Below are positions 38,820 to 44,580 of a DNA stretch of 64,000 bases, in pieces. Position 1 is the first letter of the stretch. Each line of letters begins with the position of its first letter. The notes below the pieces were generated by a model. It was not told where the DNA came from. It worked only from the letters and a program-made list of their open reading frames with translations, and searched no databases. The DNA comes from Billgrantia antri (GTDB taxonomy: Bacteria; Pseudomonadota; Gammaproteobacteria; Pseudomonadales; Halomonadaceae). Both the position numbers and the translations under genes were made by a program. Location of the stretch: the NCBI RefSeq assembly GCF_019430905.1, contig NZ_JAHYCA010000002.1, positions 186,001 through 250,000 of the forward strand, in the 5' to 3' direction.

Positions 38820-40133
38820 TTGGACACTCGTTTCCCCTTCGTCGACTGGTTCCGCAATTCCTCCCCTTATATCAATGCGCATCGGGGCCGAACCTTCGTG
38901 ATCCTGATCGAGGGCGAGGCCATGGCGCGAGGACGAGGCGAGCAGTTGATCCAGGATCTGGCGTTGCTGCACACCCTCGGCGTGCGTCTGGTGGTGGTGT
39001 TCGGCATCCGCCCCCAGGTGGAGCAGGCGCTGAACGAAGCCGGCATCGAGCCGCGGCGCCACGACGGCCGTTGGGTGGCCGACGAAGCGATCATGGCCTG
39101 CGTCGAGCGGGTCGCGGCCGAGCAGCGCCTGTGGCTCGAGGCGCGGCTGTCGCTGGGTCTGCCCAACACGCCACTGCACGGGGTCGAACTGACCGCGGTC
39201 TCCGGCAACCTGGTGATGGCCAAGCCGCTGGGGGTGCGCGAAGGGGTCGACTACGATCACAGCGGCGAGGTGCGCCGGGTACGGGTGTCGGCGGTGCAGG
39301 GGCTGCTCGACCGCGGCTCGCTGGTGCTGCTGCCGCCGCTGGGCTTCTCCAGTACCGGCGAGGTGTTCGACCTGGACGCCGCCGAAGTGGCCCAGCACGC
39401 GGCCATGGCGCTGGCTGCCGACAAGCTGATCCTGCTGGGCGAGGCGGCCGGGCTGTATGACGAGAATGGTGCCCTGCAGCGTCAGCTGACGCCTGCCGAA
39501 GCCGAGCCGCTGCTGAGCCAGATCGAACCGGGCTGCGAGCAGGCACGCCACATTGCCGCCGCCTGCGCTGCCGCGCGCCACGGGGTGGCGCGAACCCACC
39601 TGCTTTCGTGGCAGGATCACGATGCGCTGCTGGGCGAGCTGTTCACCCGCGACGGGGTGGGCACGATGATCACCCGGCATCGCTACGAGCAGCTGCGTCC
39701 GGCCGAGCTCGGCGATATCGCCGGCCTGCTGGAACTGCTCGAGCCGCTGGAGCGGCGCGGCATGCTGGTGCCGCGCTCGCGTGAACGCCTGGAGCACGAG
39801 ATCGACGATTATCTGGTCATCGAGCGCGACGGCATGATCATCGGCTGCGCGGCGCTGCACTGCTTTGACGAGACCCAGATGGGCGAGCTGGCCTGCGTGG
39901 CGATCCACGTCGACTATCGCGGCGGGGCACGCGGCTCGCTGCTGCTGTCCGGTATCGAGCGTCGCGCGAGACGGCTCGGGCTCGGCGCTCTGTTCGTGCT
40001 GACTACCCATACCGCCCACTGGTTCGTCGAGCACGGCTTCCGCCCCTCGGACATCGATTCGCTGCCCACCCTGCGGCGCGATACCTACAACCACGCCCGC
40101 AAGTCGAAGATCCTCGTCAAGCCGCTTTCGTGA
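38820..40133 (+). CDS. argA: N-acetylglutamate synthase ArgA
   Basis: 437 aa. N-terminal amino-acid-kinase-like domain (about 1-285, FVDWFRNSSPYINAHRGRTFVI) that binds arginine, and a C-terminal GNAT acetyltransferase domain (MGELACVAIHVDYRGGARGSLLL). Catalyses the first step of arginine synthesis and is normally inhibited by arginine. It starts with TTG at 38820, preceded by CCGGAG. Confidence 0.94.
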   Translation: MDTRFPFVDWFRNSSPYINAHRGRTFVILIEGEAMARGRGEQLIQDLALLHTLGVRLVVVFGIRPQVEQALNEAGIEPRRHDGRWVADEAIMACVERVAAEQRLWLEARLSLGLPNTPLHGVELTAVSGNLVMAKPLGVREGVDYDHSGEVRRVRVSAVQGLLDRGSLVLLPPLGFSSTGEVFDLDAAEVAQHAAMALAADKLILLGEAAGLYDENGALQRQLTPAEAEPLLSQIEPGCEQARHIAAACAAARHGVARTHLLSWQDHDALLGELFTRDGVGTMITRHRYEQLRPAELGDIAGLLELLEPLERRGMLVPRSRERLEHEIDDYLVIERDGMIIGCAALHCFDETQMGELACVAIHVDYRGGARGSLLLSGIERRARRLGLGALFVLTTHTAHWFVEHGFRPSDIDSLPTLRRDTYNHARKSKILVKPLS

Positions 40134-40171
40134 CGCCCTGATAGGGGCAGCAAAAAAGGCCGAACGAGGCG

Positions 40172-40209
40172 CAGCCGCCGCCCTGGAATCGTGTGCCGGG
40201 CGGCGGCTG
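40172..40209 (+). terminator. Long GC-rich hairpin after argA
   Basis: Perfect 12-bp stem CAGCCGCCGCCC (40172-40183) with GGGCGGCGGCTG (40198-40209) and a 14-base loop, 38 bases after the argA stop. The T content afterwards is weak (TCGCTTT). Confidence 0.6.
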
Positions 40210-40304
40210 TCGCTTTGGGGCAACGCCGCTTGAAATGTCGTCTCCAAAAGGCTACACGGCAAGTCACTGTTTTCAATAAATATCCTAAAGCCTGGTCGCA
40301 ACGG

Positions 40305-40322
40305 TGTCGCCATTCGGTGACG
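40305..40322. promoter_or_regulatory. Candidate GlrR (QseF) binding site
   Basis: TGTC, ten bases, then GACG, one base from the TGTC-N10-GACA element bound by enterobacterial GlrR. It lies about 110-130 bases upstream of the sigma-54 promoter at 40432, a usual enhancer distance. The glrR gene is 3 kb downstream. Confidence 0.4.
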
Positions 40323-40430
40323 AAAAAGAGGCCGGTGATACGCTGATTGAGCGGCTTTTGCCGTACGGTGACGGCGTGCCAACTTTTTTATCTATTTAAC
40401 TTGTTGTTTTTAAATAGATTGCCAATTTTT

Positions 40431-40446
40431 TGGCACGCAACTCGCT
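40431..40446 (+). promoter_or_regulatory. Sigma-54 (RpoN) promoter
   Basis: TGGCACG at 40431-40437 is the perfect -24 element, and the -12 GC lies exactly ten bases after the -24 GG (TCGCT at 40442-40446). Predicted start of transcription is near 40456. It points into a long hairpin-rich stretch rather than directly at a start codon. Confidence 0.75.
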
Positions 40447-40455
40447 ATATACTTG

Positions 40456-40921
40456 GTGAGCAACGAAGAAGTGATTCAAACGGCTCGAATCACTTCGGAT
40501 CGTCAAGAGGCTTGGGAACCACCACCCCCCCATGCCCTGTGCGACCCGAGCTTCACGACGATCGACGTTCGCTCCGCGATGTGTAACTTAGGTTGCGATG
40601 AGACGGGTACCGCCGATAGGCAAGGAACGGTACCAGAAGGGCAAGGATGCCCCGGCAAGGATGCCTCATCCCCTTCGGGGGATCGAATTCCGGGCCAGCG
40701 CCGGTGAATGCACCGGCGCTGGCACCAAAGGACGAAGCAAGGCGGTTCGCCGCCTGCCCGTACCGACGGCTCCTGGTAGCAACGGGTCGGCAACGGGGCT
40801 TCGGGACCCTCGGGTCCGCTGAAAGTATGGGACATGGCTCGACCAGGCGAACGATGCCCATATTTTCAACCCCTTCAGTTCCCTGCGTATTGGGCCGGCA
40901 TCTTGCCGGCCTCTTTTTTTT
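40456..40921 (+). ncRNA. Putative sigma-54-dependent structured regulatory RNA upstream of glrK
   Basis: About 466 bases without a credible gene, from the predicted RpoN start to a strong terminator. Hairpins seen: 9-bp stem 40469-40477/40487-40495; two small hairpins with AGGA loops, 40639-40652 (5-bp stem) and 40654-40665 (4-bp stem); 13-bp stem 40694-40706/40711-40723 with an AATG loop; a GGCGG-TTCG-CCGCC hairpin near 40741; terminator 40893-40921. AGGA loops are the classic recognition element for CsrA/RsmA. The locus position, directly before glrK-qseG-glrR, is that of the sRNA glmY in enterobacteria, which is also made from a sigma-54 promoter under GlrR. Size and structure differ from GlmY, so a CsrB-like or new RNA is as likely. 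A long glrK leader is the alternative, but the terminator argues for a separate transcript. Confidence 0.6.
40893..40921 (+). terminator. Rho-independent terminator ending the putative RNA
   Basis: Stem GGCCGGCA (40893-40900) with TGCCGGCC (40904-40911), three-base loop, then TC and eight T. It lies just over 100 bases before the glrK start. Confidence 0.88.
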
Positions 40922-41024
40922 CGACAGGACTGAGACGGGGAAGTAGGCGAGCGTGGAACTCTGTTATCCTTCAGGTACGTACCCTATGGTGGTCCCTTAT
41001 CCTCTCCTGAATAGAACATTGGTC

Positions 41025-42524
41025 ATGACCAAACGGGTCTCGCGCCGCTGGCGTCCACGCTCATTGCTGCAGCTCGTGCTGTTGGCGTTTCTTGTTGTAA
41101 TGCTGCCGTTGGGAATCTTGATGTACCAGGCCGGCCAGGCCTTGTCCGAACTGTCACACCTCGCGGACGTCAGTGCCCGCCAGGCGGTGGAAGAGAGCCG
41201 GCGTGCCCGGGTTCTCAGCAACCTGGCCGTCGAAATGGAGCGCAGTGCGCGCCAGTACGCGGTACTCGAGCAGGAGAGCCTGCTCGACCTGTACGCCGAG
41301 CGCCACAACGAGTTCCGCGAGCTGCTGGCGATGCAGCGCCGCTTCCTGCCCGACAACCCCGACGTGCAGGCGCTGGAAGAACAGCTGCTGCTGCTGTCGC
41401 AGCTGCCCGAACTGGATCCCGAGGCGCTCGAGGTATGGCTGTCGCTGTTCGTGCCATTTGCCGAGCATACCGAGGCAATGCGCCAAGCCACCAATCGCCA
41501 GATCGATGCCAGCATCGAGATAATCAGCGCCAGGGCGGAAGCCGTGCAGTCGCGACTATGGCTACAGACCACCGCGCTGGTCTCCGCCAGCCTGCTGCTC
41601 ATGCTGCTGTTCAGCTGGCTGATCATTCGCCCGGTGCGCCAGCTCGAGCGCCGCATTCTCAGCATCGGCAGCGGCGTCGAGACCAACGACCGCGATACCA
41701 TCCAGGGGCCCGCCGAACTGGTACAGCTCGGCGATCGGCTCGACTGGCTCTCGACCCGGCTCAGCGACCTGGAGGCACAGAAACAGCAATTCCTGCGCCA
41801 CATGTCTCACGAACTCAAGACGCCGCTTGCCAGCGTGCGCGAGGGCTCGGCGCTGCTGGCCGATGGCGTGGCGGGCGAGATGACGCCGCGCCAGCGTGAA
41901 ATCCTGGCCCTGATCGACTCCAGCGGCCGTGAACTGCAGCGCCTGATCGAACAGCTGCTCGACTACAACCTGCTGCAGCACAACCAGCGCATCACCCTCG
42001 AACAGGTGGACCTGGCGACGCTGGTCAAGGCCACCCTGGCCAAGCATCGGCTAGCACTGGAGCACAAGGGCATGCGGGTGACCGCATTCGACGGTCCCTT
42101 GGAGTGGGTAGTCGACCGTACCGCGGTGGGGCGCATCCTCGACAACCTGGTCTCGAATGCCATCGCCTATGGCGAAGACGGCGGCGAGCTGCTGCTGCGC
42201 GCCCACGCCGGACGGGAGCACCTGATTCTCGACGTCGCCAACAGCGGCGAACCCATCGCCGAGCATGATCGCGCGCGCCTGTTCGAACCGTTCTACCAGG
42301 GGCGCTCGCGGCGCAAGGGGCCGCTCAAGGGCTCCGGTATCGGGCTCTCGGTCGCGGCCGACTGCGCGCGCATCCAGAACGGCAGCCTGGGGCTGATCGA
42401 GGATAGAGAATACGAAGTGTGCTTTCGCCTGACGCTGCCGCGTCAGGCGCTTCCCTTGACCACGGAAAACAATAAGATGGAGCCCGTCGAAGTGGGCATC
42501 AGCGCAAGGAGCGAGGAACGATGA
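41025..42524 (+). CDS. glrK: Sensor histidine kinase GlrK (QseE)
   Basis: 499 aa. TM1 at about 13-34, a helical periplasmic region of about 130 residues, TM2 near 180-203, HAMP, HisKA with H262 in LRHMSHELKTPLASVREG, and an HATPase domain (DNLVSNAIAYGEDGG, GSGIGLSVAADCARIQNG). It phosphorylates GlrR encoded two genes downstream. I prefer ATG 41025 because TM1 follows directly; an in-frame GTG at 40953 would add 24 residues. ATGA overlap with qseG. Confidence 0.9.
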   Translation: MTKRVSRRWRPRSLLQLVLLAFLVVMLPLGILMYQAGQALSELSHLADVSARQAVEESRRARVLSNLAVEMERSARQYAVLEQESLLDLYAERHNEFRELLAMQRRFLPDNPDVQALEEQLLLLSQLPELDPEALEVWLSLFVPFAEHTEAMRQATNRQIDASIEIISARAEAVQSRLWLQTTALVSASLLLMLLFSWLIIRPVRQLERRILSIGSGVETNDRDTIQGPAELVQLGDRLDWLSTRLSDLEAQKQQFLRHMSHELKTPLASVREGSALLADGVAGEMTPRQREILALIDSSGRELQRLIEQLLDYNLLQHNQRITLEQVDLATLVKATLAKHRLALEHKGMRVTAFDGPLEWVVDRTAVGRILDNLVSNAIAYGEDGGELLLRAHAGREHLILDVANSGEPIAEHDRARLFEPFYQGRSRRKGPLKGSGIGLSVAADCARIQNGSLGLIEDREYEVCFRLTLPRQALPLTTENNKMEPVEVGISARSEER

Positions 42525-43135
42525 GGGTAACGAAGAGCTATCGAACGGGGAACGACCGTACGAGGAATGAGCGTACACAGAACAGCCGGGCGAGAACGGC
42601 GTTCGCTGTCGGTGGGCTGGCGCTTGCGCTGAGCGGCTGCCAGTACCTGCCCGAGCAGGCTGGACTCGGCGCGGAGCCGGAAGCGGCCCCGACGACCAGT
42701 TGCCGTACGGTGGAGCCGACGTTCGACAACGAAGCTTGCCTGCTGCCCAGTTGGGTGGCGTACGGCTTGGCGTCGCAGCGTGGCGATGGAGAGTGGCGCC
42801 GTCAGAAGCAGAATGAGCTGGACGCAGATTACGAATTGAGCGAAGCCGAGCGGGAGCTGGCACGTGCAGTGGCACTGGCCTGGGGCAGCGAGCAGGAGTG
42901 GCGGCAGGCATCGGAGCTCTATGAGGCGCACACGCATGCTGCGCCGGCCGACCTGCAGCCGCTGCTGCTCTACTGGCGCAACGAACTGGAAGGGCGTCGT
43001 GCCCTGGCCAGCAGGAGCACGGAGGCCCGCGCCCAGGTGCAAAGCCTGCAGCGGCAGAACGCCGAGCTCTCCGAAAAGCTCGAGGCGCTTACCGCCATCG
43101 AGCAGAACATGAACCTGCGACAACAATCGCCCTGA
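42521..43135 (+). CDS. qseG: QseG-like outer-membrane lipoprotein
   Basis: 204 aa. Lipobox LALSGC with C40 preceded by a basic N-region longer than usual (a shorter start is possible), then a mostly helical domain and a C-terminal coiled coil (QVQSLQRQNAELSEKLEALTAIEQN). In E. coli QseG interacts with the kinase QseE at the outer membrane. Overlaps glrK by four bases and precedes glrR. Confidence 0.85.
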   Translation: MRVTKSYRTGNDRTRNERTQNSRARTAFAVGGLALALSGCQYLPEQAGLGAEPEAAPTTSCRTVEPTFDNEACLLPSWVAYGLASQRGDGEWRRQKQNELDADYELSEAERELARAVALAWGSEQEWRQASELYEAHTHAAPADLQPLLLYWRNELEGRRALASRSTEARAQVQSLQRQNAELSEKLEALTAIEQNMNLRQQSP

Positions 43136-43167
43136 GGGGCGATCGGGCAACACGGGAGAAAGACGTG

Positions 43168-44580
<1,413 letters not shown>

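Follow-up and report, generated by a model that had tools for sequence, protein, structure and literature searches.

An RNA with a conserved 3' module and CsrA-type hairpins upstream of glrK in the Halomonadaceae: a candidate GlrR/sigma-54 regulatory RNA

The textbook output of GlrKR is GlmY, an RNA of ~180 nt (against 465 nt for RNA1, the RNA analyzed here). Pseudomonas has sigma-54-dependent regulatory RNAs as well, CrcZ and NrsZ, with an activator and a partner that differ from those proposed for RNA1. The operator consensus of QseF/GlrR is TGT-N12-ACA, as given in the available part of PMC6075780. For CsrA, the parts available of two further articles give a SELEX consensus of RUACARGGAUGU with the GGA in a loop (PMC7652899) and an ANGGA motif in hairpins that was modelled over species including Halomonas hydrothermalis (PMC12889724). 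According to the accessible text of PMC10729762, Escherichia coli GlmZ binds CsrA in vitro at 6 uM, so that a link between Csr and the GlmY/GlmZ pathway has some precedent. In the text available for the matches listed from the literature on Halomonas and Halomonadaceae sRNAs, GlrR/QseF, GlmY/RapZ, and CsrA, RNA1 is not described.

The argA-glrK gap and its promoter region

The window (the whole 64,000-nucleotide stretch of Billgrantia antri DNA that was analyzed) contains, between argA and glrK and in this order, three operator-like repeats, an AT-rich stretch, a sigma-54 promoter, the ~465-nt structured RNA1, and a terminator. The neighboring genes and the elements upstream of RNA1 are:

38820..40133, plus strand: argA (N-acetylglutamate synthase), upstream neighbor; ORF, NCBIfam NF003641 at 582.1 bits versus a cut-off of 344
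40208..40225, plus strand: third and most distant GlrR-operator-like site, TGT-N12-ACG, found by eye, one change from the consensus
40239..40256, plus strand: second GlrR-operator-like site, CGTCTCCAAAAGGCTACA, pattern match with one mismatch (G000:C5:226239-226256)
40305..40322, plus strand: nearest GlrR-operator-like site, TGTCGCCATTCGGTGACG, one of two exact pattern matches genome-wide
40390..40419, plus strand: AT-rich stretch, a candidate IHF bend site judged from its sequence against the IHF consensus
40431..40446, plus strand: sigma-54 promoter (-24/-12), TGGCACGCAACTCGCT, pattern match to GG-N10-GC, kept in 107 of 112 copies
40953..42524, plus strand: glrK (sensor kinase), with Pfam HAMP, HisKA, and HATPase_c; the start codon may lie further in
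42521..43135, plus strand: qseG-like ORF, named from its position
43165..44580, plus strand: glrR (sigma-54 activator), NCBIfam NF011695, with a sigma-54 interaction domain and GAFTGA in the translation

A glrK-qseG-glrR context had been proposed from the window alone. It stands for glrR, which passes the NCBIfam GlrR equivalog cut-off (807.9 bits vs. 763); the qseG identity is one of place, with Pfam and NCBIfam profile searches of the qseG-like gene giving no match.

Within a single window the control elements are close to chance level. The sigma-54 pattern with up to two mismatches occurs 95 times in the 64 kb (76 expected, not significant alone), the operator pattern with up to one mismatch 21 times in the window (19.3 expected), and a simple scan for terminator-like sites finds three in 1 kb (1.3 in shuffles). 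Genome-wide, operator matches with one mismatch are no more common than those of a reversed control (44 vs. 55). The case for these elements therefore rests on comparison between genomes, and for the terminator it is conservation that carries the weight. In 107 of 112 copies the exact promoter pattern lies 77-149 bases 5' of the RNA core, compared with 14 of 5600 shuffles, and the remaining five copies show GG-N10-GC by eye; this count covers 112 of the 114 core copies identified in the survey below, with L173 and copies too near the locus end left out. It is this conservation that bears out the textbook RpoN promoter seen at 40431-40446 in the sequence-only reading. That reading had also marked a TGTC-N10-GACG-type element upstream, which has counterparts in relatives and two more diverged copies further upstream: 83 of 103 relatives carry one or more TGTC/CGTC-N10-GAC sites within 300 bases upstream of the promoter region, compared with 1.2% of shuffles, counted over 103 of the 114 core copies with the same kinds of exclusion (L173 and copies too near the locus end). 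In its conserved GG-N10-GC promoter with activator operators the locus agrees with sigma-54-dependent sRNAs, and in its sigma-54 promoter with QseF/GlrR operators adjoining glrK-qseG-glrR it agrees with GlmY/GlmZ.

Structure and distribution of RNA1

A GlrK search (E 0.001) matched all 58 genomes, the window's own included, with 36 genomes of the same genus at E 1e-171 or better and the best matches of other families far weaker. Among the 30 loci with upstream DNA (L003-L032) the promoter was present in 29, and the RNA, cut between a point 22 bases past the promoter start and the T-run, measures 432-487 nt in these. The 29 sequences were aligned; L017, which has no promoter, was omitted. The elements of RNA1 in the window are:

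40456..40921, plus strand: structured sRNA (RNA1), from folding, the 29-sequence alignment, and covariation; inferred 5' end at ~40455-40458
40468..40496, plus strand: 5' hairpin P1 with a conserved ACGGCUC loop; compensatory changes in two of six pairs counted, 99.2% of cells paired
40498..40563, plus strand: long helix P2 closing the 5' domain; compensatory changes in four of seven pairs in 22 sequences
40564..40687, plus strand: core, matched by covariance model R1, including GCGAUGUGURAC-UUAGGUUGCGAUGAGA
40606..40634, plus strand: GGUACC stem with CsrA-like site 1 (AAGGA, 40622-40626); helix 4, three of five pairs with changes on both sides, 100% paired
40639..40652, plus strand: CsrA-like hexaloop hairpin, site 2, GGGC-AAGGAU-GCCC; compensatory changes at all four stem pairs
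40654..40665, plus strand: CsrA-like hexaloop hairpin, site 3, GGC-AAGGAU-GCC; every one of 80 rows has ANGGAN in the loop
40871..40889, plus strand: invariant 3' module, CCCUUCAGUUCCCUGCGUA, 19 invariant positions in the 29 aligned sequences (L017 not included)
40892..40921, plus strand: intrinsic terminator, nine-pair stem and T-run, from the simple scan and conservation

The ~466 hairpin-rich bases that had been noticed in the window fold with a minimum free energy of -225.3 kcal/mol (z -8.1), and none of 100 shuffles folded as well. In the core, 17 of 29 pairs change on both sides, compared with 4.7 in shuffles and at most 6 in slid controls, and 98.5% of the pair cells are standard; both values come from 80 distinct rows that were fitted to R1, so that this alignment leans towards the model. 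The unfitted alignment of 29 rows shows changes on both sides in 27 of 88 predicted pairs. The 5' domain was analyzed in 22 of the 29 sequences, with L004, L005, L007, L010, L012, L023, and L032 left out, the last because its P1 hairpin differs. There, 6 of 17 pairs change on both sides (3.6 in shuffles, of which 11 of 500 reached the observed count; at most 2 in slid controls), and one of five measures, the number of further pair types, is not above the shuffles (14 vs. 13.8). The comparison of argA-glrK regions of relatives that had been proposed as a check thus yields helices that covary above their controls. A GAGC/GCUC pseudoknot of four pairs in the 5' domain shows hardly any variation and so gives no covariation test. 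A long-range CCUGGU/ACCAGG pairing fits most rows by eye and fails in L030 and L031. Two pairings suggested by eye, one between the UGCCCU loop and AGGGCA of site 2 and one between the 3' module and other invariant stretches, were dropped for lack of covariation. A near-perfect GC-rich hairpin (a self-match) occupies positions 40694-40723 of the window, where relatives carry other sequence.

The strong terminator that had been placed before glrK is conserved: of eight stem pairs, seven are retained in at least 28 of the 29 sequences and the outermost in 27. The sequence-only reading had also described two tandem AGGA-loop hairpins. Both are conserved hexaloops, and the count has to be raised to three ANGGA sites, the third lying inside the GGUACC stem. 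ANGGA is present at each of the three sites in all 80 distinct core rows; its second base is free to vary, all four of A, T, C, and G being seen at site 1. The loop of site 2 stays ANGGAN while its stem pairs covary, and the stem of site 3 is invariant across rows, which leaves no covariation test there. Multiple ANGGA motifs in hairpin loops, two of the three in hexaloops, fit the CsrA SELEX consensus as it appears in the available part of PMC7652899; the window genome encodes one CsrA, which the hairpins of RNA1 are predicted to bind.

A pattern for the core retrieved 114 stretches from 84,980 species genomes, 112 of them from genera that we take to belong to the Halomonadaceae. The other two are L162, which is recorded only as a Gammaproteobacteria bacterium and matches the core model at 117.9 bits (in a run whose input was 80 of the 114 pattern loci and 6 others), and L173, a Bacteroidales bin with the core pattern and none of the other features. 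Across the 114 stretches, a promoter-like match and the 3' motif each occur in 107, and three or more ANGGA motifs in 112; GlrK is encoded just downstream in 103 and ArgA just upstream in 98. Model R1 matched 144 of 250 genomes and 15 of 24 genera of the family, and 5 of 293 genomes of the order, all five within the window's family; both searches used strict filters that lose weak matches. Without filters, only L231 was clear (E 7.5e-5) among ten glrK loci. RNA1 is present in Halomonas elongata (L129). Outside the family but within the order, L238 (~1034-1440) has a sigma-54-like promoter ahead of glrK and, in place of the RNA, a gene for a small EF-hand-like protein, recognized by eye, with a terminator.

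The 3' module, a sibling RNA, and viral tails

The 3' module reaches further than the core model. A search for AGTTCCCTGCGTA followed by a T-run matched 170 of 275 genomes and 17 of 24 genera of the family, and its reversed control matched 2 genomes. The module is missing from all 82 genomes of g24 (hand count) and from all genomes of g119 (8), g120 (6), g129 (2), and g130, g131, and g136 (1 each); outside these genera it occurs in 170 of 174 genomes (hand count). At E 1e-60, GlrK was missing from all four g24 genomes examined and from the single genome examined in each of g120 and g136. Single genomes of g119, g129, g130, and g131, as well as G001 of g1, have GlrK and no module (G001, G338, G339, G340, and G328 in all). 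Loss of the RNA and loss of GlrK therefore coincide in the tested genomes of g24, the largest genus, and not always elsewhere. The g24 pattern suggests loss of the whole circuit.

Four loci that were R1-negative in the family search, L229 and L230 (g23), L231 (g122), and L234 (g134), nevertheless carry the TTCAGTTCCCTGCGTA tail and a terminator in the same slot, with a clear sigma-54 promoter in L229, L231, and L234 and, in L230, a GG-N10-GC recognized by eye that the pattern missed. Their CsrA-type sites differ: three ANGGA motifs in L231, one clear hairpin site in L229, none in an evident hairpin in L230 (by eye), and no ANGGA at all in L234, whose RNA is ~150 nt. Two other g23 genomes (L073, L074) keep all three sites. 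What all members seen have in common is thus the AGTTCCCTGCGTA module with its terminator rather than the CsrA hairpins, and since L234 and L230 lose the hairpin sites and keep the tail, CsrA titration would not be a role of every member.

The search for AGTTCCCTGCGTA with a T-run located a second copy of the tail in the window genome (C5:289986-290025, minus strand). It ends a second candidate RNA:

G000:C5 ~290196-289986, minus strand (L269 ~1987-2197): RNA2, ~209 nt, between HIT-family and GGDEF genes

Both this sibling and the module's place as the shared part of the members seen had escaped the sequence-only reading, since other genomes are needed to see them. RNA2 of the window genome has its own sigma-54 promoter, a single ANGGA with the GGA in a three-base loop of the predicted fold, and an operator-like site with one mismatch at C5:290318, a type of match no more common than in the reversed control. 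The second RNAs of 14 loci (L269-L282) show the exact promoter pattern in 12 cases and GG-N10-GC by eye in two; among these loci and L283, a GGDEF gene is present in 11 of 15 stretches and a HIT-family gene in 10 of 15. Model R1 does not match RNA2 of the window genome, so that kinship with RNA1 rests on the tail, the promoter plan, and the ANGGA hairpins found in some RNA2s (L273, L279). Two g123 genomes (L281, L282) carry RNA1 and RNA2 in tandem with one sigma-54 promoter each, with glrK downstream in the one checked (L086), and in g132 the second copies carry the RNA1 core.

The tail was also found on viral contigs. Eight IMG/VR stretches (L285, L288, L292, L295-L299) contain CTTCAGTTCCCTGCGTA, and by inspection all eight tails run into a GC-rich hairpin and a T-run; the RNA2 form CTTTAGTTCCCTGCGTA was not found in IMG/VR. 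No sigma-54 pattern was detected in up to 300 bases upstream of the eight tails. Repressor-like, Rha-like, and integrase-like ORFs nearby give the contigs the appearance of temperate phages by eye, and we take the eight stretches to be candidate phage RNAs that share, and may mimic, the host tail. Among named phages and plasmids there was no convincing match; a match in Vibrio phage VP882 covered mostly the terminator and was rejected.

Readings of the locus and comparison with known systems

Promoter, operators, structure, terminator, 3' module, and CsrA-type sites are conserved as sequence features, and we infer from them that RNA1 is transcribed, depends on GlrR, binds CsrA, and acts in trans on targets. 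The reading we prefer, with a probability of roughly 0.55, is that RNA1 is a trans-acting sRNA of ~465 nt under GlrR/sigma-54 control that combines an effector 3' module with CsrA-titrating hairpins; on the best reading it belongs to a pair of siblings whose placement and control resemble those of glmY and glmZ. Phosphorylated GlrR would activate the sigma-54 promoter from the three upstream operators, and RNA1 would be released at its own terminator ahead of glrK. The module AGUUCCCUGCGUA, directly before the terminator, would be the effector, either pairing with mRNAs or being bound by a shared protein. The three ANGGA hairpins would bind and titrate CsrA and so tie the GlrKR signal to the Csr network, a part that is strongly kept in genera matching the core model and lost in some others. 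RNA2 would most likely be turned on by phosphorylated GlrR via sigma-54 in the same way, and both RNAs would act through the tail. A scan of 51 start regions for pairing with the tail found no target of the 3' module; the top region belongs to the window gene near 1136.

A wider interpretation, which we put forward tentatively and at less than even odds, is that AGUUCCCUGCGUA with its terminator serves as a regulatory currency of the Halomonadaceae. GlrR/sigma-54 RNAs, often two per genome, would signal through it to a common hub (a set of mRNAs or a protein), the long RNA would couple in CsrA, and RNAs of temperate phages, ending in the same tail, would mimic or intercept the host circuit.

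It is unlikely, to our judgment, that RNA1 is mainly a CsrA sponge of the CsrB/RsmZ kind, with the rest of the RNA as a scaffold and the 3' module as a stability or chaperone-binding tail. ANGGA at all three sites in each of the 80 distinct rows and the covarying stem of site 2 agree with a sponge, as does the small look taken for a rival: a GacA-box search for a classical CsrB gave seven sites (one perfect), five of these loci hold 0 to 4 ANGGA per 550 bases per strand, about chance, and four have no Rfam match to a Csr RNA, so that no competing sponge was seen at the few loci examined. Three sites are few for a sponge, however, members without ANGGA hairpins keep the promoter and the module, and CsrA does not account for the invariant UUAGGUUGCGAUGAGA stretch and similar elements.

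Less probable still is that RNA1 and RNA2 stand in for GlmY and GlmZ, with RapZ handling them as decoy and effector to set the level of GlmS. The synteny and promoter plan are those of glmY (three operators and sigma-54, as described in the available part of PMC6075780), two sibling RNAs exist, one beside glrK and one elsewhere, and the window genome has a RapZ gene. Against this stand the searches for GlmY itself and the pairing of the tail. Over 39000-42000, no family of Rfam 15 (4227 families) reached its gathering score, and up to E 10 there was no match to GlmY, GlmZ, CsrB, RsmY, or RsmZ, which agrees with the earlier view of RNA1 as not GlmY-like; in L269, L273, L281, L283, L229, and L231, GlmY and GlmZ were likewise not found up to E 5, and no other family reached its gathering score. 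The GlmY model RF00128 (GlmY_tke1) has no match in the whole window genome, and the same search is positive in E. coli. A link to glmS gains no support from tail pairing, where neither glmS start region ranks among the best 12 of 51 (-18.6 kcal/mol for glmS1 and -18.4 kcal/mol for glmS2; conserved tail only, RapZ's own start region not included). The glmS1 gene follows a glmU-like gene (named by eye) after a 20-base spacer, and a second full-length glmS (L202) lies beside a CapD-like epimerase gene (by eye). Rfam matches to SorX (19.9 vs. a gathering score of 46.6) and to suhB and mmgR (17.5 to 21.9 vs. 41) were rejected; the sub-threshold suhB/mmgR matches fall repeatedly on tail and terminator in several members, which may reflect a slight resemblance of the tail.

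A structured 5' leader of glrK, acting as a riboswitch or attenuator, is very improbable: the RNA does precede glrK in 103 of the 114 stretches, but the other 11, which also include L173 and loci ending near the RNA, contain at least four second copies with the same core away from glrK (L109, L122, L134, L155), RNA2 lies elsewhere, and a conserved terminator stands ahead of glrK. A small protein gene with incidental structure, suggested by plus-strand ORFs of 74 to 99 amino acids in the window copy, is already contradicted by the alignment, in which inspection shows no frame shared by these ORFs and the gap runs do not keep one either, only 115 of 787 being multiples of three.

If the preferred reading, that of a trans-acting RNA with effector module and CsrA-titrating hairpins, is true, it would connect the Csr network with a two-component system related to the envelope and add a bacterial RNA, large and structured, whose candidate regulator is obvious. 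The shared tail offers a direct handle for finding targets; since it also occurs on viral contigs, phages may use it or interfere with it.

Like GlmY, RNA1 occupies the slot upstream of glrK-qseG-glrR behind a sigma-54 promoter and three GlrR/QseF operators (PMC6075780, in the part available), and like GlmY/GlmZ it is accompanied by a sibling RNA encoded elsewhere; it differs in its invariant 3' tail, its CsrA-type hairpins, and the lack of an Rfam GlmY match. With the same signaling genes, operators, sigma factor, and slot, and an RNA that has no detectable relation to GlmY, the control circuit is kept while its RNA output differs. With CsrB, CsrC, RsmY, and RsmZ it shares ANGGA motifs in hairpin loops and a terminator at the end, and it departs from them in its sigma-54/GlrR-type promoter, in having three sites within a large covarying RNA, and in matching no Rfam family. 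McaS and GadY have a promoter and a size unlike those of RNA1. The proposed dual action by pairing and CsrA binding is a likeness to these two RNAs, as far as the available parts of PMC10729762 and PMC7652899 describe them. Sigma-54-dependent sRNAs, CsrA-binding sRNAs, and the glmY-glrK arrangement are thus each already known singly; what is new is an RNA, absent from Rfam 15, that combines a known control circuit with CsrA-type hairpins and a shared tail.
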